29,034 nucleotides of DNA, from IMG/VR virus record IMGVR_UViG_3300024259_000121, positions 1 through 29,034 of that record; one strand, written 5' to 3'. The translations under genes were made by a program, and so were the position numbers. The stretch comes from a virus. The notes beneath the pieces were generated by a model. It was given only the letters and a program-made list of their open reading frames with translations. It made no database searches and had not been told where the DNA came from. Below, in pieces: positions 4,676-27,617 of this stretch (position 1 is the stretch's first letter; each line of letters begins with the position of its first letter).

Positions 4676-5041
4676 TTAGACTCCGATTAATAACCTGACT
4701 ACATAATCTGCTCTGAAGGACGTTAAGTTATCCCACGTAACACTTACTTCTCCAATCTTAACAGACTTAGTTCCAGTCTGATCAGATACAAAGTTTACAG
4801 ATTCCTGAACTTTATCTGCAAGAGCTTTTAGCGCATCAATTTGTGACTTTACGGCCGCAACCGTAGCTCCAATATAAAAACCACTCACTTCTATACTATC
4901 TGTAACTCCCAAAAGATCAAAGGTTTCTGCTGAATCTGCTCCTTGAGTTGGAAGTGGTAATTGTACGATATTAGTAGATAGTATATCTCTAATCATCATA
5001 ACTGTACCCATATCAACGCCATCTAGAGTTGGTGCTGTCAT
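4676..5041 (-). CDS. Small Dit-like tail protein (121 aa)
   Basis: This is a 121-residue beta-rich protein between the tape measure and the hub. The segment IVQLPLPTQGADSAETFDLLG followed by IEVSGFYIG resembles the N-terminal domain of distal tail (Dit) proteins, which link the tube to the hub, and a helix (AVKSQIDALKALADKVQE) sits in the middle as in Dit N-terminal domains. No galectin-like C-terminal domain is present, so a minimal Dit is the best reading. Its ATG overlaps the tape measure stop (ATGA), and its own stop lies one base before the hub ATG. The identification rests on position and weak pattern similarity. Confidence 0.45.
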   Translation of the reverse strand: MTAPTLDGVDMGTVMMIRDILSTNIVQLPLPTQGADSAETFDLLGVTDSIEVSGFYIGATVAAVKSQIDALKALADKVQESVNFVSDQTGTKSVKIGEVSVTWDNLTSFRADYVVRLLIGV

Positions 5042-5985
5042 GCTGTTCCTTGCGAGCTTACGCCGCTAAACCCCCTTCTAAATACACCTTCTACGGCGTT
5101 GCTAATCTTATCTAAAACATTTGGAGTTATGCTACCTGCATCTAAAGCGTTAACATTTACTACAGCACTTTGTGATGCTCGACCTGCAGCATTCGTTGAA
5201 TTGACTATGTCTACAGCAGTTATATCTCTGCCACCAGCACTAGCTAAGGGCACAAAGCTTGGTGCTGTTTCGTTTCCAAAAAAGAAAGTTTCTATCTTAT
5301 TAATAAGCCATCCAGCGAAATCGAATGCGAAGTTCCACTTACCAAGTAACATTGGTTTAAAGAAATCGGCTACGATATCCCAACTGAAATCCCATTCATT
5401 TGAAAACTTCTTTTTAAGCCACGTAGCTACATCTAACGTCCATCCCCATCTATCTGCAGCGGTTTGTGTAAACCACTCAGCAAGACTTAGATCTCCGAAT
5501 ACTACGTCTTTCAAAAATGATGCTAAATTGTCGCCAGGTATAATTCCTTTAATAGCGATAGCCAAACCATCACCAATACCTTTTATTAGATCTTTATTTT
5601 CTCGAGTCCATTTAAGCCACTCAATAGACATGCGCAAAAGTGATATTGCCATCGGTCTGATAAATGCGCTGAGAGCATCACCGAATGGCCTCATAAATAT
5701 TAAGAAAGATTTTCTAAGAATATCAACTGTTGCTTTGAACTGTGGGCTAGCGTCTTCAAGAATATTTGTCATTTTCTTGATTCCTTTTCCGATCTGATCT
5801 AATGCTAACAATGGAAGTGCTGCTTTGCCTAACAATCCACCTACGCCTTTTCCGCCACCTGAACCTTCACCAGTAATACCTCTACCTGCATCAGCAATGT
5901 CAGTTCCCGGACTAGAGATGCCACCAGCTATCTGATCGATACCTCCGGTGTCGAATGAGATTCTTGCTTTTATTTCATCTACCAT
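5038..5985 (-). CDS. Tail tape measure protein (short, 315 aa)
   Basis: The protein is the ruler for tail length and follows the tail assembly chaperone. The ATG at 5985 is preferred because it directly follows the stop (5989-5987) of the frameshifted chaperone product (TAAGATG), and its first residues MVDEIK recur in another virion gene; an ATG at 6018 would overlap that product. It has a Gly-rich segment (about 40-70), hydrophobic helices (about 95-160) and three Trp-rich repeats in residues about 170-240 (RWGWTLDVATWL, EWDFSWDIVADFF, KWNFAFDFAGWL), typical tape measure texture. At about 0.15 nm per residue, 315 residues predict a tail near 47 nm, short for a siphovirus. Confidence 0.75.
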   Translation of the reverse strand: MVDEIKARISFDTGGIDQIAGGISSPGTDIADAGRGITGEGSGGGKGVGGLLGKAALPLLALDQIGKGIKKMTNILEDASPQFKATVDILRKSFLIFMRPFGDALSAFIRPMAISLLRMSIEWLKWTRENKDLIKGIGDGLAIAIKGIIPGDNLASFLKDVVFGDLSLAEWFTQTAADRWGWTLDVATWLKKKFSNEWDFSWDIVADFFKPMLLGKWNFAFDFAGWLINKIETFFFGNETAPSFVPLASAGGRDITAVDIVNSTNAAGRASQSAVVNVNALDAGSITPNVLDKISNAVEGVFRRGFSGVSSQGTA

Positions 5986-5986
5986 C

Positions 5987-6504
5987 TTACTGCATTTTTG
6001 CTCCGAATATGCTTGCAATCGCTTTTAGCAAGCGTTCGTCGCGTCGATTATTAAGCTCCTCAGCCGCGATTATCATTAGACCTACTTCATCAAAAGCGGT
6101 CTTGTCGTATACGTCTAAACTTCCTAGTCCGCAGTTTGAGAATCTGGCTTTTTCGATGAGTTTACCGATTCTTTGCTCGGGGCAGTGTCCGTGCTGGATT
6201 GCCCATCGGACTTTTTTGTATCTTTCTCCACTTCAACGCTGTCAATAAGCTGTCTCAAAGCACCAGCGAGTTTAGTATAATCTTCTGGCTCCATAGATCG
6301 TATCTGATCTTTTAATGGATGTGTTGTACCAAACGGATGTTGCTTGATACACTGTGGTAATAAGATCTTTACGACAGTTATTGGGTTAGTTCCCCAAATC
6401 ATTTGTGCTGCCTCTATTGCATCTGTATATATTCCAGCTCCGGGTTTCTTTATCAGAAACTCACCGGCGCTTGTTTCTACTTTTATTTGTTTCAATTCGT
6501 TCAC
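5987..6504 (-). CDS. Tail assembly chaperone, long -1 frameshift product (gpGT-like)
   Basis: Translation starts as in the short chaperone (6124..6504), slips back one base at A_AAA_AAG (6217-6211) after residue 98, and continues in the -1 frame for 74 codons to TAA at 5989-5987. The total is 172 residues if counted from the GTG. The extension (VRWAIQHGHCPEQRIGK at its start, LMIIAAEELNNRRDERLL later) looks like real protein and fills the otherwise unexplained gap between the chaperone and the tape measure. This is the lambda G/GT arrangement: the short form coats the tape measure and the long form recruits tube subunits. The coordinates span both frames, because the table cannot show the slip. 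Frameshifting itself is inferred from sequence. Confidence 0.8.
6124..6504 (-). CDS. Tail assembly chaperone, short form (gpG-like)
   Basis: The protein is up to 126 residues, lies between the tail tube and tape measure genes, and is the expected chaperone of tail assembly. It has an N-terminal beta part (IKVETSAGEFLIKKP), a helical middle (AIEAAQMIWG, YTKLAGALRQLIDSVE) and a polar, disordered Ser/Lys tail that begins exactly at the slippery site. The start is uncertain. A GTG at 6504 sits inside a perfect Shine-Dalgarno (GAGGTGA, 6507-6501), so the TTG at 6495, five bases downstream of that motif, is the better initiation codon and gives 123 residues. The stop is TAG at 6126-6124. Confidence 0.75.
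   Translation of the reverse strand: MNELKQIKVETSAGEFLIKKPGAGIYTDAIEAAQMIWGTNPITVVKILLPQCIKQHPFGTTHPLKDQIRSMEPEDYTKLAGALRQLIDSVEVEKDTKKSDGQSSTDTAPSKESVNSSKKPDSQTAD
6178..6231 (-). promoter_or_regulatory. Programmed -1 ribosomal frameshift signal (dnaX-like cassette)
   Basis: Three elements occur in order. First, an internal Shine-Dalgarno-like GTGGAG (6231-6226) ends eight bases before the slippery site. Second, the in-frame heptamer A_AAA_AAG (6217-6211) has zero-frame codons ACA AAA AAG. Third, after a six-base spacer, GGGCA (6204-6200) pairs with TGCCC (6184-6180), and an inner TCC/GGA stem (6198-6196 with 6190-6188) extends the hairpin. GTCCG (6211-6207) can alternatively pair with CGGAC (6191-6187), which would make an H-type pseudoknot. 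Slippery site, upstream Shine-Dalgarno and downstream hairpin match the set known to drive -1 frameshifting in bacterial dnaX. Confidence 0.8.
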
Positions 6505-6544: not shown

Positions 6545-7585
6545 TTATGCGTATGTGTAATATTCTACGATCGTTTTATTTGCTCCGTTAGTTAAGCCAG
6601 ATAGTGCATATCCTCTAACGGTTAGGAATATTGATCCACCAGTATCACTCATTTCAATTGGTTGGTCAATTTCTTCGATGTAACAATCATCAAATTGTAC
6701 TTTTATGGTTTCATCACCAGCGACAGCTCCCTCAGTTAAAGTCAAAGTAATATCGCCACACGGAGTTGGTATACCTCCAGTCTCTGGAGTCGCTGAAGCA
6801 GCAGCTCCAAACAATAGCTCTCTAAGTTCTACACCAGATAGCTTGCTACCTGTTGTATCTGCAGTATGCTTGACAACCATAGTCCAATTATATCTTCGAG
6901 TACCCATAGTTGGCTGTGAAATTAATCTTCCACCAAGTTCTGGATCGATCTTATGATTGTTTGCGCCAGTTACATCAAAACTAGCTACTCTAACAACAGT
7001 ATCTGAGCCGAAAGTTACTGCTGCGTCTACGAAGGTAAGTGGTTCTTCGGTTGTCGGAGTATATGTCAAAGCTCCGCTAGCTGTACGCGTTATGTTCCTA
7101 GCTCTATATGTTCCAGTCCAAACAACTGGTCCAGGTATTTTAACACTAAGATTCCAATTTGTGAAGAAGACTCCGTCTAGGGTGATAACATCATCTACAG
7201 TTCCATCATTACCATATTCGATAGTTAGAGATGGACAATCTGCTGCGCCATATCCGAAAGCATTTGCTTCGTTTACGTCGCTAGGATCTCCCTGCGCTCC
7301 AGTATTAGCTACGACTACACCATTAACCAAATATTGGAAAAACGCTGCGTTAGTCAGCATAGAAGTTATTACTCCGCTAATCTCAACTACGCCGTTAGTT
7401 GTTGTTTTAGCGTTAGGACCCTCACCAATAGCATTATCTCTGGTTCGGTTATTCTTTACGGTTGTACTTATTGCAGTGACTTTGTCTATAAAGTCTGTGC
7501 CTGCCGGATTACCCGGTGTTCCCCATGCAGTATCTTCGGCAAATACCACATAAGTATCGGTTGCTTTGTAGTTATCTATTGACAT
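6545..7585 (-). CDS. Major tail tube protein (346 aa)
   Basis: This is the tail tube subunit. The N-terminus (YKATDTYVVFAEDTAWGTPG) and the early strand (GVVEISGVI) are typical of siphovirus tube proteins, as is the alternation of long beta strands up to the C-terminal LTVRGYAL. The chaperone and tape measure genes follow it and the tail terminator precedes it, as in the canonical tail module. The length is larger than the roughly 150-250 residues usual for simple tubes, so an extra surface domain is likely. The start is supported by AAGGTGAG seven bases before the ATG at 7585. No contractile sheath gene is seen nearby, in keeping with a non-contractile tail. Confidence 0.75.
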   Translation of the reverse strand: MSIDNYKATDTYVVFAEDTAWGTPGNPAGTDFIDKVTAISTTVKNNRTRDNAIGEGPNAKTTTNGVVEISGVITSMLTNAAFFQYLVNGVVVANTGAQGDPSDVNEANAFGYGAADCPSLTIEYGNDGTVDDVITLDGVFFTNWNLSVKIPGPVVWTGTYRARNITRTASGALTYTPTTEEPLTFVDAAVTFGSDTVVRVASFDVTGANNHKIDPELGGRLISQPTMGTRRYNWTMVVKHTADTTGSKLSGVELRELLFGAAASATPETGGIPTPCGDITLTLTEGAVAGDETIKVQFDDCYIEEIDQPIEMSDTGGSIFLTVRGYALSGLTNGANKTIVEYYTYA

Positions 7586-8359: not shown

Positions 8360-8380
8360 TGTTTTATATAAAATACATTA
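8360..8380 (-). promoter_or_regulatory. Late-type TATA promoter, copy 1 (tail operon)
   Basis: The symmetric core TTTTATATAAAA lies at 8362-8373, and the whole 21-base element, including the TAATGTA flank upstream on the minus strand, is identical to the copies at 19377-19397 and 22072-22092. On the minus strand it would start transcription near 8341 and serve the tail terminator, tube and downstream tail genes. An inverted repeat (8388-8411) lies immediately upstream of it. The exact repetition at three intergenic sites is direct evidence of a shared regulatory element. Its reading as an archaeal TATA box is an inference. Confidence 0.75.
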
Positions 8381-10472: not shown

Positions 10473-13400
10473 TTAGCATGAACCATCCCAGTTAGTAAAG
10501 ACGATACTGGAATTAAGACCGAGTACGATATTATTCAGATAACAGCTCAAGCCAGTTACTTCTACAATTGTGCCTATGTTCTGCGATTCTATATTCCAGA
10601 ACTGTTTTGTTCCAGATGCGATATGTGTATTTGTTGAATTAAATATAAACGTTCCATTATTGTGCAATAAAGTGCCGTTTGTATCTATGGTGAAATTGCT
10701 AGTGGTGATAGTCGTATTTGATGAAGTAGCGTGATAAAATGCGTCAGTTCCTATATACATGCTTCCAAAATCACATATGTCACCTTGTGAGGCATTGATG
10801 CCAGATCCAGACCCAGTTATATTAGCGAGTTCTCCAACAGTTAAGTTAAATCCATCAGTATCCCATACAAAACCGTTAGTGGTTAAATTATCACATTCAT
10901 AGTTTCCAAATTGTAAGACATTCGCAAACATATTGCACGAGATCACATCATCTGTAAAATTAAATTGGAAGGGTGTAGCAAAGCTAGAGTTAACATCTTC
11001 TGTAACTGCTATTGTTTTCCAGTAATATGTGGTATTGACTGTCAATTGTGATGTATTGAACACGAACGTGTTGGTTGCAATACCTTCAGTTTCATTAAGA
11101 ATTGTGCTAAAGTCAGAGTCATTATCTAGCTGGAAACCGTAAGTGATGCTATCTAAATCAATATCGGTACTAGCTACCCAAGTAAATGAAATTGTGTCGG
11201 ATAAGTTAATTTGTATAGTATTATTTGCTGGGAAAGATAAAACTGGATCTGAAGGTGGTGCATTTACAATTGTGACGTTTGTACTAAATAAAGTTGATGT
11301 GTTAGCAAAGCCATCCGTAGCCCAAACAGAACAATTGTAATAATTAGTCTTAGTTGTAAATGAGCTAGATAAATTAAGTGTACAATCTTCACCATTAGCA
11401 CAGTTTTTCAGTTCGGAGAATATAGCAGTTCCGTTCTCATAAAAAGTAGCATTCATAGTTAGTGTTTGTCCAGCATCAGTATCTGTTATGCTAGAATTAC
11501 AAAATAATGTCTCGTTAGTATAATTATTTGCTCCAGCAAAGATATTTGGGGTAGCTATTGTTAGTGGTAAATTAATTATAAAGTAAGCTTCTTCTGTAAC
11601 AACATTTACTCCGCCGATGGATTTGAAAGTTATATCTTTTTTATTGGTTGTAATTGTGGCTTTTACTTTTGTACTTGATACACGAGTTATCTGAATAATG
11701 CTATTTGGGTCATCATTTTCAAAATCAACCCACGTGTGTCCGATACCATCACCAATAACTATATGACCTGTATATTTGCTAGATTGTCTTATCGTAATTG
11801 GATCTGCGCTTTCCACATATCTAACTATAGTTTTAGTTCCAATATTTGCAAACTCGATCTTCTCTTGATAACGATCGTTCATCGGAATTATAATTAAAGA
11901 CTCTACTTTGCTAAGATCTTTATTGTCTGTATATATCTTAGTTTTCTTGTCATTAATAGTATACTCATATCCACCGAGAATCGCAGAATTATCTTTATCG
12001 ATGCCTTTAAGCGTATGATCATCTGAAACAGATACTATTTGACGATATAATCCGGGAGCTAGTGATCCAGTATTGTTTGTCCACGTGAAAGAGCTATTTA
12101 CTATGTTGCTGATCTCTTCGAAGAAGACAGAGTCTCCAGTTGAGTTAATAATAGAATTATTTGTACCGAATAGATTATTATCACTAACTGTAATATTCAT
12201 AGTTACGTTGTCTACAAAGGTTTGATTTACAACATTAGAAGGAACAACCCATGTGATTGTCGGACTGGTTACATCTATTTTGAAGCTAGCATTTCCAGAA
12301 CTATCGCTTTGGGCAATTGTTCCATTAGCGAATACTTCCCACGTATAATTTCCTTCACCACTAGAAGTAGCATTTGCCCATGTATGATTAAGATTCGGAG
12401 TATTTGCAGATTCAACAATATCACTTGACGAATTATAAATATAAACTATATAGTTAGTCGCACCAGTAGATTCGTTCCATATAAAAGACAGGTTTATGAA
12501 TGTATTAAATAATTGATTTACTGGACTAACTTGTAATGGTGCATCTAATCCACAGGTATTGCTTAAAGTTCCAAGACCGATATTTGTTCCAGTTCCCAAT
12601 AATCTACAATAAGACATGTTGATATTTATTGTGATATTAATATCCCCATCCAATCGTAATGTATCATTAACAAAAATGGACGCATTTCTACCAATGTCAT
12701 CAACAATATTATTTCCCGCCAGCGTTAAATTTGCGAATTGAGTTTCGTTTGCACCTAAAAGCGTTCCAGATCCAATTATGTTAATGAGAGAAGTTATTTC
12801 ATCAAAGGTTTTAGTATCTGCCCATGCCGTTGTTTGTGTTATTCCATCATTAGTTCCCTTAAAGTCAGAAACATTTGTTCCGAATCCTTCATCAAACTGA
12901 TAACAAGAAATTAAATTAGCTTGATTAACTAAGTCTGAGCATTGTTTCAGTGAGTTAGTTCTAAGTTCATCAGGAGTTAATTGTATATTATAAAATTCAA
13001 CTCTTCCGATAGTTGTTTCTGCATAAAGTCCTACAGCTCTACGACCAACAAAACCTATATTGGTAGGATCTGCGGCCCAAGCACCATTAGAAAGTTCTGC
13101 AGAGAAAAATCCATTGATATACATATCCACCGTAGTTGTTGAAGTTCTAACTAGTGAAATCTGATTCCAAGAGTTATTGGTTAGATCCACCATTGCTGAA
13201 CTAGAATCGCCTGTGCTTCCTAAGTATAATAACATACTTGCGCCATTGTATCTAAAACCCAGTGCACCGTCAGTTTCTCCACCAAAAATATATTCTGTAG
13301 AAGCTAGTCCGGGATAATAATACCAAATATTAATTGTATTGCTGGTTCCTAAATTTAGTGCGGGCGTTATATTTAGGTATTCATCGACACCATTTAACTC

Positions 13401-15467
13401 TAGTGCTGATGTTCCGATAAATGCACCATTACTTCGCCAATTTTCTGAGATATCGTGCGTTCCTGCGCGTGCATCGAACTCACCTGTAGATAAAATTGTT
13501 AGATTTCCTGCAGCTAAATTATAATTTGATGAACTAGCATCTAGCTTTAATCCAATGAATAGATTTCCACTAGTGTTCCAATCACCTGTTAGTGTAGTAT
13601 TTTTGTTAATCAATATGTCACCACTCATTGAACCACCGTTGTTATCAAAAGTTCCGCTAAACAATGCAGATTCTTCTAGTTGTGTTAAATCGGACGTTGC
13701 TGTATAAAAACCGCCATCTATTAATAATATGTTTTCGTGATATGCAATTTGATTGGCGAGGGTTGCATTGTAAGTTCCATTTACAAAAACATTACCAGTT
13801 ACATTAACTGTCGTGTTCTCAATTGTTAGAGTTGCAGAGGTATTCAGAATATTAAGATCTCCATCAACAACTAGCGCAGTATTGTTATATAGCGTATCTG
13901 CAGTGATATTTAAATCTGATGCGATTGTGTGGCTTCCACCTACAAATCGGAAAGGTGCATTGACATAAAAGTTGCTAGAAGTTAGAGTCATATCCGTATA
14001 GTTTGTCTCCTTTAGAATTGTTGTGTCTCCTGAGATATTCAGCATTCCGCCAGCATCATGTAATATCGTGCCGTTCTGAATAAATGCGTTATCGACAGTT
14101 AGATTGAACGTGCTGATGTTCCATGTATTGTCTTGGATCTCGAGAGAAATACACCGAACATTCCCATTTTGAGCATAGTCAACGTCTTGGCCAGCTGCAA
14201 CAGTTAAATCGCAGATAGGTAGGATCGCCATGTAATCTATAGATATATCGTGATTGATATTTCCAGATTCAGCGTGTTGAACTCTTGTATGTATAACACC
14301 GTTAGTGATCCAATCATCTGCACTCTGAACAGTCTCATTTTGGAATGTCATGGTGCTATTTTTGAATACGAGTAGTGCTTGATTCCAACTTCCATTATAT
14401 ACAGACCACCATTCGTTATGTGACGGACTGCCATCATAAACTGCAAATGTGCTGAAGTTCCACAATAAACCTGCTGGAAGCTCAGAATTAGTAAAATTCA
14501 TCTGGCACTCTTGTCCGGGAGTTCCGGTTGTTTCAGAAACATTAAGTGAATCACCATCAATAGCTTGCAAAGATGCTAAATTACCTGCATCAACAACACC
14601 AACAATTCCTTGTAAGGTATCTGGAGTCCAAGCACCCGTAGTTACATTGTAAGGATCGTATGCTCGAATAAACTCTAGAACTTGATAATCTTTAAATGAC
14701 TTAAAGTGAACTAGTAAAACCTCGTCTTCTGCATCATATACTGCCTTATCGAAGTTTGACTCATCACACCACTCAATCTTCATATTATAGTTAAAATCCA
14801 ACGAACAGCGATCACTGAAAGAGCCGAGCGGATAATCATAATTATCAATGGCTTCAGCTTCTCGTATTCGCCAAGTGAGACGATAACTCGCAGTATCTTT
14901 TGCATTATATTCAACTCTATAGTCGCTAGGGAACTGCTCAAATTCAGCAAGTGCGTTTATTGTCTGTATTTGGGTCATGTACCCCCCATCTCCAGTGCTT
15001 CTGACAGCATAATACGGCGTGTTCTTGATCACGCGCATGGAGACATTATCCTCGACTTCCTCGTAATAGAGATCAATCTTAGTTGCTTTGCGATTGCTTC
15101 TCTCCCAATAATCATCGACGTAACATCGAGTTGCAGTTACTTTAGAACATATTGAGACATCATCTACGTCTTTTAGTTGCAGATAGGTTCTCTGACGCTC
15201 AACAATCCAGTCTTCTTTGAATCCGATGTATCGACCAGAGTAAAGTGTCCACTCATCTGTTGTATATTTCCAACGTAAGAAATCATCAATACCTCTAGTA
15301 ATGAACTCTAGCTTCTTGCCAGATTCATAGTCTAGTAGAATATAATTAGCGTCTGGATTGTCTTCCAGTAAATTTCGATAATCTGCCGTATTAAGGGCTG
15401 ATAAGACTATCATAATTAGAATAAGTCCACTTGCTACACTACCCACTACCGTTGTTTTATTGACCAT
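10473..15467 (-). CDS. Giant sequon-rich surface protein with LamG and Fn3-like domains (1664 aa)
   Basis: A hydrophobic segment at residues 8-25 (VGSVASGLILIMIVLSAL) is a signal anchor or signal peptide. Residues about 30-290 hold a globular N-terminal part. A beta-helix-like region follows (about 430-680), then a LamG/concanavalin-like domain (about 688-865, ending in ISCYQFDEGFGTNVSD). Fn3/Ig-like modules lie at about 974-1063, 1064-1160 and 1404-1505, with another beta domain at about 1172-1295. More beta-helix rungs run to the C-terminus. Dozens of N-x-S/T sequons occur across the length, as in archaeal surface glycoproteins. It lies between head and neck genes, so it may be a head fibre or adhesin, or a host-type protein displayed on the infected cell. 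Confidence 0.75.
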   Translation of the reverse strand: MVNKTTVVGSVASGLILIMIVLSALNTADYRNLLEDNPDANYILLDYESGKKLEFITRGIDDFLRWKYTTDEWTLYSGRYIGFKEDWIVERQRTYLQLKDVDDVSICSKVTATRCYVDDYWERSNRKATKIDLYYEEVEDNVSMRVIKNTPYYAVRSTGDGGYMTQIQTINALAEFEQFPSDYRVEYNAKDTASYRLTWRIREAEAIDNYDYPLGSFSDRCSLDFNYNMKIEWCDESNFDKAVYDAEDEVLLVHFKSFKDYQVLEFIRAYDPYNVTTGAWTPDTLQGIVGVVDAGNLASLQAIDGDSLNVSETTGTPGQECQMNFTNSELPAGLLWNFSTFAVYDGSPSHNEWWSVYNGSWNQALLVFKNSTMTFQNETVQSADDWITNGVIHTRVQHAESGNINHDISIDYMAILPICDLTVAAGQDVDYAQNGNVRCISLEIQDNTWNISTFNLTVDNAFIQNGTILHDAGGMLNISGDTTILKETNYTDMTLTSSNFYVNAPFRFVGGSHTIASDLNITADTLYNNTALVVDGDLNILNTSATLTIENTTVNVTGNVFVNGTYNATLANQIAYHENILLIDGGFYTATSDLTQLEESALFSGTFDNNGGSMSGDILINKNTTLTGDWNTSGNLFIGLKLDASSSNYNLAAGNLTILSTGEFDARAGTHDISENWRSNGAFIGTSALELNGVDEYLNITPALNLGTSNTINIWYYYPGLASTEYIFGGETDGALGFRYNGASMLLYLGSTGDSSSAMVDLTNNSWNQISLVRTSTTTVDMYINGFFSAELSNGAWAADPTNIGFVGRRAVGLYAETTIGRVEFYNIQLTPDELRTNSLKQCSDLVNQANLISCYQFDEGFGTNVSDFKGTNDGITQTTAWADTKTFDEITSLINIIGSGTLLGANETQFANLTLAGNNIVDDIGRNASIFVNDTLRLDGDINITININMSYCRLLGTGTNIGLGTLSNTCGLDAPLQVSPVNQLFNTFINLSFIWNESTGATNYIVYIYNSSSDIVESANTPNLNHTWANATSSGEGNYTWEVFANGTIAQSDSSGNASFKIDVTSPTITWVVPSNVVNQTFVDNVTMNITVSDNNLFGTNNSIINSTGDSVFFEEISNIVNSSFTWTNNTGSLAPGLYRQIVSVSDDHTLKGIDKDNSAILGGYEYTINDKKTKIYTDNKDLSKVESLIIIPMNDRYQEKIEFANIGTKTIVRYVESADPITIRQSSKYTGHIVIGDGIGHTWVDFENDDPNSIIQITRVSSTKVKATITTNKKDITFKSIGGVNVVTEEAYFIINLPLTIATPNIFAGANNYTNETLFCNSSITDTDAGQTLTMNATFYENGTAIFSELKNCANGEDCTLNLSSSFTTKTNYYNCSVWATDGFANTSTLFSTNVTIVNAPPSDPVLSFPANNTIQINLSDTISFTWVASTDIDLDSITYGFQLDNDSDFSTILNETEGIATNTFVFNTSQLTVNTTYYWKTIAVTEDVNSSFATPFQFNFTDDVISCNMFANVLQFGNYECDNLTTNGFVWDTDGFNLTVGELANITGSGSGINASQGDICDFGSMYIGTDAFYHATSSNTTITTSNFTIDTNGTLLHNNGTFIFNSTNTHIASGTKQFWNIESQNIGTIVEVTGLSCYLNNIVLGLNSSIVFTNWDGSC

Positions 15468-15835
15468 TATTGACTACTTACATAAACACCGGCTTTAACA
15501 CCTATTGAATCTGCGGCTGCTGTTGCTCTCAATCGAACATTTTTGTATTTCCCTAACCATGGAATTGATTTAATTGCTGCTGCGGAAATAGTTGTTCCTG
15601 CTGATTCATTGTCTATTTGAAACCAATTAGTTCCATCTGGACTATGCTCTGGAAATACAACGATATCAGTTGCTGCGCCATTAGTATTATCTACTACAAA
15701 TGCACCAGATAGGCCATTTGCTTCAAAAGCAGTTACTAGAGTTGTTGAGCCAGTATCTGAAACGGTTACGGTCGTAGTATCTATACGCGAGTGTACTCTT
15801 CCTGCTGTGCCTATTGTTTTAATTTCATCTACCAT
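15467..15835 (-). CDS. Small virion protein, likely head decoration or minor capsid
   Basis: The protein is 122 residues long and made of beta strands with the pattern VVFPEHSPDGTNWFQIDNES, IPWLGKYKNVRLRATA and GVKAGVYVSSQ, a beta-sandwich type frequent among minor capsid and tail proteins of phages. Its first six residues (MVDEIK) and most of the surrounding DNA match the start of the tape measure gene. It starts one base after the stop of the LEM/SAP-like gene and its stop overlaps the ATG of the giant surface protein (TAATG), so the three are coupled. Its function is inferred from composition and position. Confidence 0.55.
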   Translation of the reverse strand: MVDEIKTIGTAGRVHSRIDTTTVTVSDTGSTTLVTAFEANGLSGAFVVDNTNGAATDIVVFPEHSPDGTNWFQIDNESAGTTISAAAIKSIPWLGKYKNVRLRATAAADSIGVKAGVYVSSQ

Positions 15836-15836
15836 T

Positions 15837-16121
15837 TTAATCTGCTTGCGCTCCTAATATCTTGTTAATTAAATCAGCCTTTCGGTTGTCTTTAACATTC
15901 ATTTCCTCGCCAATCTTTCTTAGCTCGGTCATTTTCATTGCCTTTAGGTCCTCTTCCGAGAACTTTGCTTCAGACTGCTCTTCTTCAGAGTTTGGATCTT
16001 CTGGAGCTTCCACTTCTGGTTTTTCTTCCACAAGATTACCTCTGATTTTCTTAACAGCAGTCTTACCGTCATCAGTTTTTATGATCATGTAATCATCGGT
16101 TTTGCTTAATATTTCTTGCAT
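15837..16121 (-). CDS. Acidic protein with C-terminal LEM/SAP-like helix-extended-helix domain
   Basis: The protein is 94 residues long. Residues 1-32 form a small beta hairpin part (DDYMIIKTDDGKTAVKKI), followed by a disordered acidic linker rich in Glu and Pro (about 33-55). The C-terminal part (LKAMKMTELRKIGEEMNV, then KADLINKILGAQ) matches the helix-extended-helix of LEM, HeH, SAP or Rho-N domains, which often bind nucleic acid and are common as small domains in head-region phage proteins. The start has AGGAG eight bases upstream of the ATG at 16121. It is the first gene after the terminator at 16150-16185, so it needs its own promoter or read-through. Confidence 0.6.
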   Translation of the reverse strand: MQEILSKTDDYMIIKTDDGKTAVKKIRGNLVEEKPEVEAPEDPNSEEEQSEAKFSEEDLKAMKMTELRKIGEEMNVKDNRKADLINKILGAQAD

Positions 16122-17226: not shown

Positions 17227-18378
17227 TTATGCTATCTCCGTAATAGACGCACAGAAAGTTGGCGCACGTATGATTAAGGCCTCGTAGATCTTAAGCATAA
17301 ATGGGGTTGAATCTGCTGTCTTCGCAAGCTGTTCAAACGTTAAGTCTTGAAGAACTCGCATTTCGATTACAGTCATATCTAACAAATACATAGCTTTGCT
17401 ACCTGTTGTGTTAGACAAGAACATACTTGGTATCAGTGTTACTGGTCCGACCATTGTCCATAAGGTTATTCCGCTAGGTACACCAAAAGGCAATACGCCG
17501 TTTGCTGAGTCTGCAGGTGACCATCTGAACTGATCAACTAGCAATTTTCTTGTGTCTTTGACTACTGAGGATGAGCCTACTGCGATAGTTGGTCTTCCAC
17601 CGTCATCAAAAGCATACTGAATTGCTTCTTCAATGTCATCGTATTCTAGAGCGGTAGTATTCTTATCAACTGTATTAGTTGTGCTTAGTGTTGCAATTAT
17701 TCCATTGAACTCGGTTCCGTTAGGATTGCCTGAGATTCCAGAAGTTGTTGCATTACCATTGATAATCATATTCTCTTCTAGTTCACGAATTGATCGTGTT
17801 TTGACAAGAACTTCCATCTGCATTGCGTTAGGTGCGTTCTGATCTGAAAAGCTTCCGACTGCTCCACCGTTTGGGTTGAATCCCATTAGGTTGTATGGAG
17901 GTACAGTAGCTAATGCTTGACCGGTTACTCTTCCCTTAGCATATAAATACTTAATTACAACTGAGTCTCGCTCATAAGTATCATTTGTCTCGGTTAGAGA
18001 TGAGTCTTCTGCTCTTGCAAATGCTCCGCCTTTAGCGGTTATCTTGTTAAAGTCTGCTGTTCTACCACGGTTAGTTACTCTAGGGATTATCTCCACTAAA
18101 GGAGTAAACTTACGTGTTATGTCGACGATCTGTGGATCTACGAAAATAGGTACAAGTACCTTATCTGTTGATCCGCTTCCACCCGTAGTTGAAGTAAGTG
18201 CTTTTATTTGTGCCTTCATCTGTGGAGAAGCTATAAATCTCTTGTTCATCTCTTCCTTGGTCATAGTACCGCTGTAATTCTCTCCGAAACTTTTCAGAGT
18301 AAAACCACATGGATTTGAGTAAACAAATCTATCGGGCATGTTTCCAAAAGAGGCTCCATAATTTCCTTGTTCTTCCAT
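17227..18378 (-). CDS. HK97-fold major capsid protein (383 aa)
   Basis: The protein that builds the icosahedral head follows the prohead protease. The core from about residue 72 has the HK97-family layout: VPIFVDPQIVDITRKFTPLV, then IPRVTNRGRTADFNKI at the start of the E-loop region, VIKYLYAKGRVTGQALATV as the long spine, ELEENMIINGNAT in the P-domain, and a C-terminal A-domain with KAMYLLDMTVIEMRVLQDL. The first 60-70 residues look helical and polar and end at SPQMKAQIKA (51-60), a motif shared with scaffold and portal; they may form a removable N-terminal delta-like segment. AGGAG lies six bases upstream of the ATG. Confidence 0.88.
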   Translation of the reverse strand: MEEQGNYGASFGNMPDRFVYSNPCGFTLKSFGENYSGTMTKEEMNKRFIASPQMKAQIKALTSTTGGSGSTDKVLVPIFVDPQIVDITRKFTPLVEIIPRVTNRGRTADFNKITAKGGAFARAEDSSLTETNDTYERDSVVIKYLYAKGRVTGQALATVPPYNLMGFNPNGGAVGSFSDQNAPNAMQMEVLVKTRSIRELEENMIINGNATTSGISGNPNGTEFNGIIATLSTTNTVDKNTTALEYDDIEEAIQYAFDDGGRPTIAVGSSSVVKDTRKLLVDQFRWSPADSANGVLPFGVPSGITLWTMVGPVTLIPSMFLSNTTGSKAMYLLDMTVIEMRVLQDLTFEQLAKTADSTPFMLKIYEALIIRAPTFCASITEIA

Positions 18379-19376: not shown

Positions 19377-19397
19377 TGTTTTATATAAAATACATTA
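19377..19397 (-). promoter_or_regulatory. Late-type TATA promoter, copy 2 (protease-capsid operon)
   Basis: The 21-base element is identical to copies 1 and 3, with core TTTTATATAAAA at 19379-19390. The core centre is about 35 bases upstream of the protease ATG, so the transcript would have a leader near ten bases. Upstream on the minus strand lies TTGCAA 17 bases before TATAAA, which by chance or design also fits a bacterial -35/-10 spacing; the other two copies lack it at that distance. Confidence 0.75.
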
Positions 19398-20237: not shown

Positions 20238-20424
20238 TTTTCTTTACTCTCTCCCTGATTTCCTTGAGTAAGGGTATTCTTTGAGTGCTTGCTGTTCTAC
20301 AACCAGCAACTTTTCCGCATTCCTTACAATATTCCGCGGTAATTAATCTATTTTTTTCAATATGACGGTCGCAGTTCTTACAACGTCGATTTTCTAGAAT
20401 CTGATGTCTCTCTCGGGGTCTCAT
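20224..20424 (-). CDS. Small zinc-ribbon protein between portal and MuF (66 aa)
   Basis: The protein has 66 residues, with a CKNCDRH pair (Cys 15 and 18) and a CKECGKVAGC group (Cys 33, 36 and 42). This is a zinc ribbon with a possible fifth ligand. Basic residues occur throughout (MRPRERHQ, IRERVKK), which suggests nucleic-acid or protein contact. The ATG overlaps the portal stop (ATGA) and the end overlaps MuF. It is one of several Cys-rich small proteins of this virus. A role in head assembly or packaging is possible from position only. Confidence 0.68.
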   Translation of the reverse strand: MRPRERHQILENRRCKNCDRHIEKNRLITAEYCKECGKVAGCRTASTQRIPLLKEIRERVKKSGIV

Positions 20425-22055
20425 ACTTTATCAATAGTTTCTTGCAGATCAGTTATGAACTCAGCTACCTTAGCGCGCATTTCTGGGTTCGGCTTGATAC
20501 TCTTCTGAGTTGGAGCTTTGTCTTTATCGTCATCTTTTGACTTATCCTCTTTAGGATCTACGTCCTCTTCAGGTTTTGGTGGTAGATCTGGAGCTTCATC
20601 AGCCATCTTCTTCTTGCTCTTGTTTAGCTCTTCGACATTGATATCTAATTGCTCTGCAGCCATCTCTGAGGTTAGAACGCCCATGTTGATTTGCTTTTCT
20701 AGTAGCTCAGTCTTCTTGATATCGTCTTCAATATCATTATCAATATATCTGTAGACAAGTGGATTAGCAGCAACGGCCTGGTCCCAGGCAGATTCTCCAG
20801 TTTCTTCATTATCTTTAAAACGATGTACGCTAAACTCTGGCAGGATCTCTGTAGTCATATGATATTCAAAGGTATTGCTAATTGGCCGGATGGCCTTTCG
20901 CTTAAAGACCTTAGTTTGCTCTTCAGATATTGCGCGATTAGATTGCTCGGTGAATCCCATCTCGTCTGGAGTAACTCCATAGTTCATCCAAAGTAATTTA
21001 ATAAACCAGTCTTGCTGCTGGATAATCATTAGCTCTTTTGGTGATAAGTTAAACCCAACAAATGTTGGTGGTTTCTCAGCATTAGACCATGGTAGCTTGT
21101 GTCCGATTCTTCGAGTATTATCAAAACCATCTTTAGCAGTTACTCTATCTTCGAACTGGTCTTTCATAGTCTGTAATTCATCGTTTGGTATACCCGGAAC
21201 ATTAATCAATCCTTCTGGGATTCCTGAGTTAATGTACCAATCTAGATTGTATTGTAGTCCATAGTACATAGTTAGAATTATATCTGCTGCGATCTCTAGC
21301 ACGCTTCGGCCATAAACACTATCTGTTCGAGGATTCTGCATTAGATAGACGATCTCTCGCTTTCCGAATGGAACTGGTCTAGCAGCTGCGGTCCATCCAT
21401 ATTGGAAGTAAGCTGCACGATCGCTAGCATAAACATTAAAATATCCTTCATAGTGTTCGTTAGTCAGTTGATTTGTTCCAAAGAAACGATTGATTGGCAA
21501 TATGACTTCATCTCGATTACCTATTGCGCCATATATATCTGGATTCTTAAGGAAAGTTAGGCCATCTCTAGCATAGATCTCCTTCATAATATTAAACTGA
21601 TTGAAAACCTTAACGATTACTCCAGAATCAAAGTCAATAAGATCGCCCATGGATGCTCGCTGGATCGATTCCCAGCTTTCATTGTTCCGGTTTGGATTCT
21701 GGAAGAAAGCTTCTGCGTCTTTCTTATCTTCTTCTGCTGCCTTTAATGCTTTTGTGTCAGTAATGTCTTCACGTATAAAAATACCATAATCAAGTGAGCT
21801 GACCTCATCAGTAAGCGTTTTCTTAACTGAAAAAGTATATGGGGTCTTGGAAAGATTCTTTAACAAATTAGTGTCAATCCGTCGAGGGAATCCGAACGGC
21901 GGCTTCCACAGAAAGTTTGGTATGAATGACTTCATGATACCCATATTATCTGCAGGTCGTGGAGTATTTCCAACAACTGCGCGATTAACGGGATTTACTG
22001 TAGCGTTCGTAGACTTGCTTGTTAAGTTCTTAAAAGCTTCCCAGATATTAGCCAT
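20421..22055 (-). CDS. Portal protein (544 aa)
   Basis: The dodecameric channel for DNA entry. Family features are visible: the N-terminal clip-to-wing path (NLSKTPYTFSVKKTLTDEV, LDYGIFIRED), ESIQRASMGDLIDFDSGVIV, QYGWTAAARPVPFGKREIVY, the helix-rich wing (SVLEIAADIILTMYYGLQYN), FVGFNLSPKELMIIQQQDWF and the crown TPDEMGFTEQSNRAISEEQT. The C-terminal about 60 residues are charged and disordered, with a final helix after NPEMRAKVAE, a motif also seen in scaffold and capsid. It lacks a Shine-Dalgarno, and promoter 3 lies about 25 bases upstream of the ATG, so it is likely translated from a leaderless transcript. Confidence 0.85.
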   Translation of the reverse strand: MANIWEAFKNLTSKSTNATVNPVNRAVVGNTPRPADNMGIMKSFIPNFLWKPPFGFPRRIDTNLLKNLSKTPYTFSVKKTLTDEVSSLDYGIFIREDITDTKALKAAEEDKKDAEAFFQNPNRNNESWESIQRASMGDLIDFDSGVIVKVFNQFNIMKEIYARDGLTFLKNPDIYGAIGNRDEVILPINRFFGTNQLTNEHYEGYFNVYASDRAAYFQYGWTAAARPVPFGKREIVYLMQNPRTDSVYGRSVLEIAADIILTMYYGLQYNLDWYINSGIPEGLINVPGIPNDELQTMKDQFEDRVTAKDGFDNTRRIGHKLPWSNAEKPPTFVGFNLSPKELMIIQQQDWFIKLLWMNYGVTPDEMGFTEQSNRAISEEQTKVFKRKAIRPISNTFEYHMTTEILPEFSVHRFKDNEETGESAWDQAVAANPLVYRYIDNDIEDDIKKTELLEKQINMGVLTSEMAAEQLDINVEELNKSKKKMADEAPDLPPKPEEDVDPKEDKSKDDDKDKAPTQKSIKPNPEMRAKVAEFITDLQETIDKV

Positions 22056-22071
22056 ATTTTATCAACTCACT

Positions 22072-22092
22072 TGTTTTATATAAAATACATTA
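22072..22092 (-). promoter_or_regulatory. Late-type TATA promoter, copy 3 (portal operon)
   Basis: The 21-base element is identical to copies 1 and 2, with core TTTTATATAAAA at 22074-22085. Its upstream end overlaps the stop codon of the preceding gene. The core centre is 24-25 bases from the portal ATG, the distance at which archaeal RNA polymerase would start on or next to the ATG. No Shine-Dalgarno lies before the ATG, as expected for a leaderless message. Confidence 0.78.
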
Positions 22093-22810: not shown

Positions 22811-23015
22811 CGGGTTTGCCTCCATTGTATTCATAAGGTGGATTACCTCGATGTTGCGCTCTTACCCTACGACGTATGACGTTATATCTTCGAAGTACCC
22901 TAATATTGCGATCTACGGAACAACTGCTAATCTTCAACTCGGCGCATATTTCTTTAGTAGTAAACCATCCATCAATATGTTTCTTTAAGAAGTTCTTTAC
23001 GCTATCTTGTGACAT
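22800..23015 (-). CDS. Winged-helix DNA-binding protein (71 aa)
   Basis: The protein has 71 residues and is a compact winged helix: VKNFLKKHIDGWFTTKEICA, ELKISSCSVDRNIRVLRR as the helix-turn-helix, and a basic wing (NVIRRRVRAQHRGNPPYEY). It resembles small archaeal transcription regulators. The ATG overlaps the terminase stop (TAATG). Encoded in the middle of packaging genes, it could control late transcription, for example at the shared late promoters, or act in packaging. Both are guesses. Confidence 0.62.
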   Translation of the reverse strand: MSQDSVKNFLKKHIDGWFTTKEICAELKISSCSVDRNIRVLRRYNVIRRRVRAQHRGNPPYEYNGGKPDVF

Positions 23016-24472
23016 TAGAACAGCACCGTCCCTCTGTGTGCTACAGCAAATAATAACATGAAGGCATCTGCCCAGTCTGGAGATTTATCCTCTGGATCGA
23101 TTATACGTACCTTGCCAGATACTGTTGTGTACTTCATTGATAGGAGCTGTCTACGTAAGGTTCTATCAACTGGGATTGAGACTCGACCATCTGACAGAGC
23201 AGTAGCCATATACCAAAAGAACTCTGCTTTCTGATTTAATCTTGTATCTTTAAGGCGATGATTTGTTGGAGATCTACCAACTTTGATGTCATTTGCTCTG
23301 TAGCCGTCTGCTCTAAGTGTTGAACATACTCCTGAACCAATTCCAATCGCATCTACGTTAATCTCCCACGTCTTTTCTAGGTATTTTTCTGCCCATCTGG
23401 CCGTATCTGTAGGGTCTTTTTTAGATGTATAATATATCTTCATAACCTCATATTTGTTCATCCATACTAGCGCAATCATCAAGACCGTAAAGTCTCGGCC
23501 AAACTCTGCAGGATCTATACTGGCTAGAGTCTTAATCGCCGGGATCTTCTCGCGATCCTTCTCAGGTAGCTTTGAGTTATCTAGGATTGCTTGCTTGTAT
23601 GTTTTCATTAGGTTGAAGACTTGCTCTTCTGCGTCTATTATCCATGAGAATCTTACTAGCGAATCATCTGACTCGTCAGGGTAGTTTGAATCGTATAAAA
23701 TTACGAACATGATCGGAGCCATTTCCTTGCGCATCTCATCAATATGCTTCTGAGTAGTTCGACCTTCTTTGATGCCTTGCTGCCAGTCAATATGGATAGC
23801 AAACCATTCTGGATCTGTGTAGTGATCGTAAGCGACTGTATCTCGATCCCAAGGGTTAGTGATCTCAACCATGATTGCTGTGTCTGGAGCATCTCCAAGC
23901 ATTCGTAGGATCTTAGCGTAAGCGTCTCTTTTAATCTTAGCTGCCTCGTCAATGATAATTATTCCATTTGCGCCAAATCCCATGATTCCGCTAGCATCAC
24001 CGTGCGCTGTGAAGATCCGGTACTCCATGCCGTTCTTGAACGTCTGCCTGTACCGGGAAGCCTCGCTCTTTAGCTTGGATAGTTTCTTGCCTCTCTGCAG
24101 CTCAATGATCTCTTGTAGCTGTCTGCAGCGCATTACTCCGTCTAGAATATAGTCTCTAATGATTCCTGCTTGCTCTCGCTTAGGCGCGATAAGTGCAATT
24201 TGCTTGTTTTCGTTTAGTAGAATATACAGATCTACGCCAATACCTACTGCAAAAGACTTTCCATACCTAGTGTAAGCGTTGATAGATACTCTCTTATGCG
24301 TACCAAATGCGATAGTTCGTACTATGACTTCCTGCCCATGAGGTAGACTAACCTTAAACAACCACCGAACTAGGAACCTTACGTCCTTTAGTTTTATTGC
24401 TCTTTCCAGTATCTGTGCGTCTTGGCTTGATTGGTTTTCTTGCCTTTCTTCTAACCTGCTTCTTAATCCCAT
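23015..24472 (-). CDS. terL: Terminase large subunit (485 aa)
   Basis: The packaging ATPase and nuclease. Walker A is INAYTRYGKSFAV (about residues 64-76), the variant R-x-G-K-S form usual in terminases. Walker B is GIIIIDEAAK (about 170-179), followed by the coupling motif VEITNPWDRD. The C-terminal RNase H-like nuclease has ASIDPAEFGRD (Asp320), VDAIGIGSG (Asp374) and SPDWADAF (Asp466, Asp469). The start at 24472 overlaps the small-subunit gene by 119 bases. A later non-ATG start cannot be excluded, because the conserved part begins near VRFLVRWLFK (31-40). Length and motifs indicate an intact enzyme. Confidence 0.93.
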   Translation of the reverse strand: MGLRSRLEERQENQSSQDAQILERAIKLKDVRFLVRWLFKVSLPHGQEVIVRTIAFGTHKRVSINAYTRYGKSFAVGIGVDLYILLNENKQIALIAPKREQAGIIRDYILDGVMRCRQLQEIIELQRGKKLSKLKSEASRYRQTFKNGMEYRIFTAHGDASGIMGFGANGIIIIDEAAKIKRDAYAKILRMLGDAPDTAIMVEITNPWDRDTVAYDHYTDPEWFAIHIDWQQGIKEGRTTQKHIDEMRKEMAPIMFVILYDSNYPDESDDSLVRFSWIIDAEEQVFNLMKTYKQAILDNSKLPEKDREKIPAIKTLASIDPAEFGRDFTVLMIALVWMNKYEVMKIYYTSKKDPTDTARWAEKYLEKTWEINVDAIGIGSGVCSTLRADGYRANDIKVGRSPTNHRLKDTRLNQKAEFFWYMATALSDGRVSIPVDRTLRRQLLSMKYTTVSGKVRIIDPEDKSPDWADAFMLLFAVAHRGTVLF

Positions 24473-26078: not shown

Positions 26079-26337
26079 CTTCTTTATTTTCAAATATGTT
26101 TGGTTTAGTGGTTTTCTTAATCGATATATTTGCAACCCTATCGATAAAATCAAACAGAAGTGGTACATTGGGTGCGTTATCTAAATCAGATCTCCAGCTT
26201 TCCATCAATTCTTGAACGTCTTTAAGTGCTTGATTGTATCCAAGCCATAACATAGAAACATTATCTTTTTGTCCCTTGTAACATTTAATATTCAATATCT
26301 TTCTATTTTCTAAGTCTTTTAGTGTTTCAAATTTCAT
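26071..26337 (-). CDS. Hypothetical protein (88 aa)
   Basis: The protein has 88 residues with a mixed alpha/beta pattern: IKCYKGQKDNVSMLWLGYNQ, ALKDVQELMESWRSDLD, then VPLLFDFIDRVANISIKK. No family is recognised. The ATG overlaps the methyltransferase stop (ATGA) and the end overlaps the start of a YkgJ-like gene, so it is part of one coupled operon. Confidence 0.5.
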   Translation of the reverse strand: MKFETLKDLENRKILNIKCYKGQKDNVSMLWLGYNQALKDVQELMESWRSDLDNAPNVPLLFDFIDRVANISIKKTTKPNIFENKEDE

Positions 26338-27539
26338 AATTTAACTGCCTCCTTACCTGTTAGCTTTTCCCATCTAGCAATTATAACATCACAATAGTAT
26401 GGATCGATCTCCATAGTGTAGCAAATCCGTCCTAGTTTTTCTGATGCAATTATCGTTGCTCCGGATCCACCATAAAGGTCTGCAACTATATGGCCTTTTT
26501 TACTAAATTTAGTTAGGAACCAATCTACAAGTTTCAAAGGTTTCTGTGTAGGATGTAATCTCTTCTTAGTATCTTCTTCAGATAATCCAAAGATTCCCTT
26601 CCATAAGACTCTAGCAATTGCGCGTTTATGTTTAGCTTTGCTCCAACATAGTTCAAAGTTAGATCCAAACATCTTATCGTAGGCATCATTTACACCTTCA
26701 CCATTGTTCATCTTATCCCAGACGATCCAAGAGCCTTGATTTCTCTTAGGAACTAACTCTGCAAAATAGTCTGCTCCCCATACAAATATCTCTTTACAAT
26801 AATTAAAGTTAGAGAATATCGTAGTGATTAGCTCTGGAGTAAAATCATCATTATCTCCCTCGACTTTTTTGTATTTGTTACCTTTAGCGATTCCTTCCAT
26901 CGACGAGAAATCTGTATCTAAAAACATTCCATAAGGCGGATCTGTAAATACAACATTAGCTAGCGCGGAGTTCATCAAAATATCTACGTCAGTCTTCTTA
27001 ATCGAATCTCCACACATAAGTCTATGATGTCCTAGTTGCCAAACTTCTCCAATCTTTACGACCGGGTTTTCTTTAATCTCTGCAGCATCAGCATCAAAAT
27101 CATCTTCTTCAACTACCGGTGGAAACTCCTTTTCGATTAGTCCTTGGACGTCTATCTCTTCTTGAGCCAGTAACTGCATGAATTTATTAACTGCTTGATC
27201 ATCATGTTCTAATATGAATTGGTACTCTTCTGCGTCTTTCTTATTGTCATGCTCTCCTTTAAGCTTGTTCATGATCTGTCTAAGTAAGCGTCGGTCTACC
27301 TCATCAACATCTAGTGCAACAACTGGAACTTCTTTCATGCCAAGTTCTCTTGCTGCGTTCCATCTATGCTCGCCGTCTGCGATTAGGTACTCTTTATTTG
27401 TTATAATTGGTACTATAAATCCGAACTTCTTTAAATTGTTCTTTAGCGCGAAGAACTTGTTGACATCCATCTTATTAGGATTTTGATCGTCTGTCTTCAA
27501 TAGTCCAATATCAATTACTTTTACTTCTGGTATTTTCAT
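26334..27539 (-). CDS. ParB-like domain fused to adenine-type DNA methyltransferase (401 aa)
   Basis: The N-terminal 90 residues are a ParB/Srx-like domain with IADGEHRWNAARELG (about 53-67). The C-terminal methyltransferase has motif IV TDPPYGM (199-205), then HPTQKP (329-334), and the AdoMet motif DLYGGSGAT (354-362), followed by MEIDPYYCD. The catalytic motif before the AdoMet motif marks the beta class, which usually makes N6-methyladenine (or N4-methylcytosine). Such ParB-methylase fusions are common in phages and may protect viral DNA or change gene control. The ATG at 27539 is preferred over the TTG at 27599, because the ParB-like domain begins with MKIPEVKVIDI. Confidence 0.85.
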   Translation of the reverse strand: MKIPEVKVIDIGLLKTDDQNPNKMDVNKFFALKNNLKKFGFIVPIITNKEYLIADGEHRWNAARELGMKEVPVVALDVDEVDRRLLRQIMNKLKGEHDNKKDAEEYQFILEHDDQAVNKFMQLLAQEEIDVQGLIEKEFPPVVEEDDFDADAAEIKENPVVKIGEVWQLGHHRLMCGDSIKKTDVDILMNSALANVVFTDPPYGMFLDTDFSSMEGIAKGNKYKKVEGDNDDFTPELITTIFSNFNYCKEIFVWGADYFAELVPKRNQGSWIVWDKMNNGEGVNDAYDKMFGSNFELCWSKAKHKRAIARVLWKGIFGLSEEDTKKRLHPTQKPLKLVDWFLTKFSKKGHIVADLYGGSGATIIASEKLGRICYTMEIDPYYCDVIIARWEKLTGKEAVKL

Positions 27540-27617
27540 TTTAATATAAGTGATGAGCCTGACAATGCGCAGCGTAGTACAGCTGCCCTCCCCCTTCAAC
27601 CCATCGTGGGAAGAGTA
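27540..27617 (-). other. GC-rich untranslated leader with two hairpins
   Basis: This 78-base gap separates a membrane peptide gene from the methyltransferase gene. CCCA (27600-27603) can pair with TGGG (27607-27610), and GCAGC (27569-27573) with GCTGC (27582-27586); between them lies GGGGGAGGG on the minus strand. Composition is clearly richer in G and C than the surroundings. No tRNA features or T run are seen. It may hold a structured leader or a transcription signal for the methyltransferase. The start of the frame at TTG 27599 cannot be fully excluded. Confidence 0.45.

Follow-up and report, generated by a model that had tools for sequence, protein, structure and literature searches.

The window analysed here comprises 29,034 nt, positions 1 to 29,034 of the IMG/VR record IMGVR_UViG_3300024259_000121, and carries the structural module of a tailed virus on its minus strand, with TerL at 23015-24472, the portal at 20421-22055 and an SU10-like capsid protein at 17227-18378. 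The tail genes follow in the order tail tube, G, T, tape measure and a 606-aa protein, the last of which keeps its position in relatives and is the probable hub. The major tail tube protein (Phage_tube_2, PF18906, 2.1e-8; 6545-7585, minus strand) lies directly 5' of G, and the 315-aa tape measure protein occupies 5038-5985 on the same strand. A short, 80% identical stretch (15814-15864 and about 5964-6015) covers the starts of a 122-aa gene (15467-15835) and the tape measure gene, and both proteins begin with MVDEIK. Elsewhere on the minus strand, at 26334-27599, a ParB_N domain is fused to an N6/N4 DNA methylase, and similar proteins occur in the related loci L155, L045 and L024.

Between tail tube and tape measure, the open reading frame of the short tail assembly chaperone, G, extends over 6124-6504 on the minus strand and ends with a TAG at 6126-6124. 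Translation of G probably starts at the TTG at 6495-6493, as judged from the Shine-Dalgarno (SD) sequence GAGGTGA (6507-6501) five bases before it and from the relative L119, which likewise starts with TTG; given these two features, the GTG at 6504 is disfavoured as a start. Within the G frame, the slippery heptamer A_AAA_AAG is located at 6217-6211 (codons ACA AAA AAG), exactly where an earlier note on this DNA had placed it. It is the sole in-frame copy in the window, and the other genes, with 8605 codons, contain three in-frame A_AAA_AA[TC] sequences and none ending in G. From 6211, the -1 frame is open for 74 codons (VRWAIQ...AKMQ) up to a TAA at 5989-5987. This T domain (5987-6211, minus strand) would form the C-terminal half of a GT fusion, with the junction TKK-VRWAIQ replacing the 0-frame G tail KSDGQSSTDTAPSK. 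Starting from TTG 6495, the fusion would comprise residues 1-95 of G plus T, that is 95 + 74 = 169 aa. The ATG of the tape measure gene (5985-5983) follows the T stop after a single base; the earlier note was right about the 74 open codons and had counted two bases here.

Two further elements flank the heptamer, both as previously described. An internal SD-like GTGGAG (6231-6226) is positioned 8 nt upstream, and a stem-loop (6204-6180; GGGCA.TCC.....GGA...TGCCC, 5 + 3 bp) begins after a spacer of six bases (6210-6205). Folded alone, the hairpin reaches -9.9 kcal/mol (z -2.6), and in longer context it is moderately stable (z -1.6 to -1.9 versus shuffles). The alternative pseudoknot that had been suggested for this stem-loop did not hold up, there being no loop-tail helix of at least 4 bp within 50 nt of the hairpin. 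A CCGAT/ATCGG pairing was ruled out as a pseudoknot, since it is nested and begins inside the spacer.

To place the cassette in an evolutionary context, we assembled a family of uncultivated relatives that have capsid, portal, tail tube and hub in common with the window. Scans with G, tail tube or TerL as single proteins returned no real matches. The first relative, IMGVR_UViG_3300005077_000065, was reached by aligning TerL with distant homologues from phages and is 55% identical to the window in the capsid, 44% in the portal and 41% in the tail tube. Its tail module contains CTT AAA AAA AAC TCA TTA GAG CCA TAG with a GGAGG upstream, and its -1 ORF ends TAA-G-ATG before the tape measure, the same as in the window. 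Alignments of capsid and tail tube then yielded 60 and 23 loci, respectively, in viral contigs and five in cellular genomes, and more were obtained from whole records. Two matches to the GT fusion (L003 and L004) were discarded as tyrosine integrases having WAIQHGHC in common by chance. Podovirus-like records from Manatee Spring that matched TerL were set aside too, having the terminase alone in common. The capsid and GT proteins of the family had no match in 50,697 phage records, and at blast level the family showed no sequence similarity to named phage proteins. One TerL relative (L013:5645-8962) encodes a portal protein that continues into a Mu F-like end and seems to contain an intein. HNH-type homing endonuclease-like ORFs are found beside the chaperone genes at L143:10587-10961 (in the gap between tail tube and G) and L172:6577-7017 (after T).

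After removal of identical copies, 29 loci were available for comparison in which a pair of overlapping ORFs separates the tail tube gene from the tape measure gene. In 26 of these (the window and 25 relatives), the second ORF lies in the -1 frame and fills the space before the tape measure, a placement that had been noticed for the window. Every one of the 26 overlaps contains an in-frame A_AAA_AAN, compared to 2.3 expected under a first-order Markov model. The heptamer ends in AAG in eight loci (the window, L114, L135, L144, L146, L170, L173 and L189), in AAC in six (L107, L117, L119, L154, L166 and L184) and in AAA in twelve, among them L155 from a Woesearchaeota bin. In the remaining three loci (L097, L127 and L181), the second ORF is instead shifted by +1. 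They carry TTT_C at the expected place, and their T domain aligns with the rest of the family. The +1 sites (L127:7455, L097:8855, L181:6332 and also L012 around 18092) read TTT CAA GAA, TTT CGA or, in the haloarchaeal virus HRTV-28, TTT CGT TGA. In the lineages L120/L163 and L140/L164, a single ORF of 132-133 aa is present between tail tube and tape measure (2466-2864 in L163/L120 and 2466-2861 in L164/L140). Because there is one ORF and no overlapping second one, these lineages seem to do without frameshifting. The earlier note had held that relatives lacking the heptamer would count against the cassette; among the relatives seen, those without it are confined to the three +1 members, which retain the frameshift by other means, and to these two lineages, which have a different gene at this position.

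The putative stimulators were distributed less evenly. SD-like 4-mers precede 13 of the 26 slip sites and SD-like 5-mers precede eight, where 3.6 and 1.2, respectively, would be expected judging by frame-matched windows in the same genes. Downstream sequences fold slightly better than shuffles on average, with a mean z of -0.8 to -1.2 (SEM about 0.3). L154 and L117 each possess an 11-bp hairpin that begins exactly 6 nt past the heptamer, as does the one in the window; at three base pairs, these two loci have diverged by compensatory changes. Across the family, about half of the members have the SD and a few have a hairpin at the 6-nt spacing. All -1 members thus have the heptamer, with SD and hairpin as optional additions, and the window has all three. 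The designation "dnaX-like" given previously is apt in sequence for the window, with its A_AAA_AAG, SD and hairpin, but of these elements the family as a whole keeps only the heptamer.

We next asked whether both frames behave as protein-coding sequence. T and G are both alignable over the family. For the T-only part beyond the G stop, dN/dS ranged from 0.11 to 0.42 in every pair with finite dS, all of them pairs of relatives, with dS saturated in pairs involving the window. This purifying selection, a check that the earlier note had called for, bears out the impression that the -1 frame is protein-like, as do the T relatives, of which eight of 25 match PHROG 9001 (tail assembly chaperone; best 3.4e-8). 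The window's own T gave no profile match. G relatives weakly match Phage_TAC_5 (2.9e-4) and PHROG 344 (1.4e-3), and a profile search with G against PDB sequences found nothing relevant. In an AlphaFold2 model of G, pLDDT is around 92 over residues 1-80, and the low-confidence end begins near the slip site; residues 1-85 are predicted to fold as a chaperone domain, with a disordered tail past the slip site. Among PDB structures, this model comes closest to 2OB9, the tail assembly chaperone of HK97 (probability 0.82, E 0.22). Tail assembly chaperones are also frequent among its viral fold matches, with examples from Mu (FS-gp41) and from the haloarchaeal viruses HHTV-2 and ChaoS9. The T model consists of four helices (mean pLDDT 90), and a fold search with T alone returned no match. 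The similarity to chaperones therefore arises via the relatives and the fold, and is weak for the window taken alone. Sequence elements, their conservation, selection on -1 coding in the relatives and similarity to chaperone families were all seen directly.

A shift of frame at the heptamer could in principle be made by RNA polymerase rather than by the ribosome. Polymerase slipping on the A-run would generate mRNAs with one extra A or lacking two, from which the T frame could be entered without a ribosomal slip. Run lengths in the family span 6-10, and six relatives have runs of 9 or 10, where such slippage may occur; the run of the window comprises only six. Moreover, polymerase slippage needs no phase, yet all A-runs keep xxA AAA AAN (chance about 5e-5), and the SD enrichment, the covarying hairpin and the TTT_C sites of the +1 members point to the ribosome. 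Because the phase of the A-runs is kept, along with stimulators and +1 variants, the comparison favours ribosomal shifting, and we consider transcriptional slippage very improbable as an account of the region.

Less probable still is that T constitutes a separate gene, translated from an internal start or by reinitiation after G termination, with no fusion being made. The genes are tightly packed and TTG codons exist within the T frame, which speaks for such an arrangement, but the head of T has no conserved start codon. Instead, the slip site marks the beginning of the T family, whose members mostly open with KK[VI][RK]xAI. The G stop varies among relatives from 0 to about 85 nt past that site, and the in-frame heptamer is universal. 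The idea that one continuous gene was split by a sequencing or assembly indel deserves almost no credence: a six-A homopolymer is a common error site, but the same -1 layout recurs, in diverged sequence, in relatives from independent metagenomes, which already refutes it. Programmed -1 frameshifting to produce a G/GT-type tail chaperone pair, as proposed in the earlier note, is strongly supported by the conserved heptamer, ORF and position, by selection, and by profile and fold matches.

Indirect evidence on the host came from contigs binned into metagenome-assembled genomes, in a scan of about 85,000 genomes. Four of the five capsid relatives in cellular genomes fall into archaeal bins: three into bins of Woesearchaeota/Nanoarchaeota and one into another archaeal bin, for whose phylum 34 genomes were available, nearly all under 1.5 Mb. 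The fifth is a 4.6-kb contig in a WOR-3 bin. The same cassette is present in L155, the locus from the Woesearchaeota bin. In the window, three identical copies of TGTATTTTATATAAAACA lie in intergenic gaps on the minus strand (8360-8377, 19377-19394 and 22072-22089), where 0.11 matches would be expected with up to three mismatches allowed. Two copies directly precede the protease and portal genes, at distances suiting archaeal TATA boxes and short leaders; from general knowledge of archaeal promoters, we take the copies to be probable TATA-box promoters. A search of the first 20 kb of the window against CRISPR spacers in 371 genomes from the phylum to which the Woesearchaeota bin belongs gave no convincing match; outside related virus contigs there were four weak matches of 29-99 nt, and the three short ones lay outside repeat arrays. 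Taken together, an archaeal host is likely, and a DPANN host is probable at a somewhat lower level of confidence. The earlier suggestion of an archaeal virus hence stands as likely, from mostly DPANN archaeal bins and TATA-type promoters, rather than as proven. The window also encodes a 1664-aa protein (10473-15467, minus strand) with 75 N-X-S/T sequons, at 4.5 per 100 aa five times the density of 0.9 elsewhere. It has no Pfam match and is perhaps a glycosylated fibre or surface protein.

The host assignment bears on how the slip site would be decoded. In the dnaX-type mechanism, tRNA-Lys(UUU) reads AAG and pairs anew on AAA, in the absence of tRNA-Lys(CUU). The Nanoarchaeota bin of the relative L159 carries tRNA-Lys(CUU), so in such a host AAG decoding may differ from the tRNA-Lys(UUU) reading of Escherichia coli dnaX. 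That A_AAA_AAC and A_AAA_AAA are common as slip sites would be compatible with a less strict requirement for the codon in the A site. In its layout, the window resembles bacterial dnaX, its A_AAA_AAG being preceded by an SD and followed by a hairpin at comparable distances (8 nt and 6 nt, compared to about 10 nt and about 5-6 nt for dnaX). It differs in gene and product, in the lack of conservation of SD and hairpin within its family, and in a likely host lineage that has tRNA-Lys(CUU).

G-T frameshifting is widely conserved among long-tailed phages (PMC5009743, PMC8211752). Like lambda gpG/gpGT, the window has a gene with a chaperone-like G fold between major tail protein and tape measure, a predicted -1 shift near the end of G, and a T reading frame, offset by -1, that runs up to the tape measure gene. 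Unlike in lambda, the slip site is A_AAA_AAN, and the shift in the window is predicted from sequence. In archaea, programmed frameshifting has been demonstrated for a single gene, Saccharolobus fucA1, and is predicted for a few others (PMC8211752). Among tailed viruses of archaea, -1 G-T shifts have been reported or predicted for the haloarchaeal siphoviruses HVTV-1 and HCTV-1, -2 and -5, and a +1 shift for HSTV-2, and A_AAA_AAR has been proposed for the magnesium chelatase of methanogens (PMC5009743, PMC8211752). As an archaeal example, the window is thus not the first. The HVTV-1/HCTV viruses share the predicted -1 G-T shift with the window, HCTV-2 at A_AAA_AAC, but belong to another virus family with other probable hosts, and the window combines A_AAA_AAG with SD and hairpin. 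The haloarchaeal virus HRTV-28 (Suolaviridae) resembles the window in its portal and gene order, and its G and T appear to be connected by a +1 shift at TTT_C (TTT CGT TGA), as in three members of the window's family; relative to the window, the shift direction differs, and capsid and terminase are not similar by tblastn. Suolaviridae membership, judged by a common capsid and terminase, was accordingly rejected, as only the portal matches, at 23% identity. Tailed proviruses are also known from Woesearchaeales, a probable host order; a tail assembly chaperone is annotated among them, and frameshifting is not mentioned for them (PMC11705971).

According to these data, we interpret the region as a G/GT-type tail chaperone pair expressed via a -1 slip at A_AAA_AAG in a tailed virus probably infecting DPANN archaea, a reading to which we assign a probability of about 0.92. 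In the proposed mechanism, most ribosomes would read the G frame to the TAG at 6126-6124, so that a chaperone of about 123 aa results. A smaller share would be held up by the SD-like GTGGAG before the heptamer and the hairpin after it, with Lys tRNAs on AAA AAG; these ribosomes would slip one base back at the heptamer and continue into the 74-codon -1 frame, giving the fusion of about 169 aa. By analogy to lambda, many G and few GT molecules may coat the tape measure protein, with T recruiting the tail tube subunit. The occurrence of slippage, its rate and these binding roles are what we infer here.

G/GT-type -1 frameshifting is classic and was already reported in haloarchaeal viruses; what is new is its family-wide conservation in DPANN-associated viruses and, as read from the sequences, an apparent switch between -1 and +1 shift direction within one family. 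With slightly better than even confidence, we propose that a DPANN-archaeal virus family has kept the chaperone frameshift over family-level divergence, while SD and hairpin were gained or lost and some members changed direction, with -1 shifts at A_AAA_AAN and +1 shifts at TTT_C, and that A_AAA_AAG would shift in cells with a separate AAG tRNA-Lys. If true, the family would allow changes of frame by archaeal ribosomes to be studied by comparison: its 26 diverged A_AAA_AAN sequences with partly conserved stimulators, together with the three +1 variants, would make archaeal frameshift rules testable in reporters. The cassette could also serve as a marker for annotating the tail modules of uncultivated DPANN viruses, with T being added to these virus genomes as a missed piece of protein. 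A known phage trick would thereby be extended to a little-known group of archaeal viruses.
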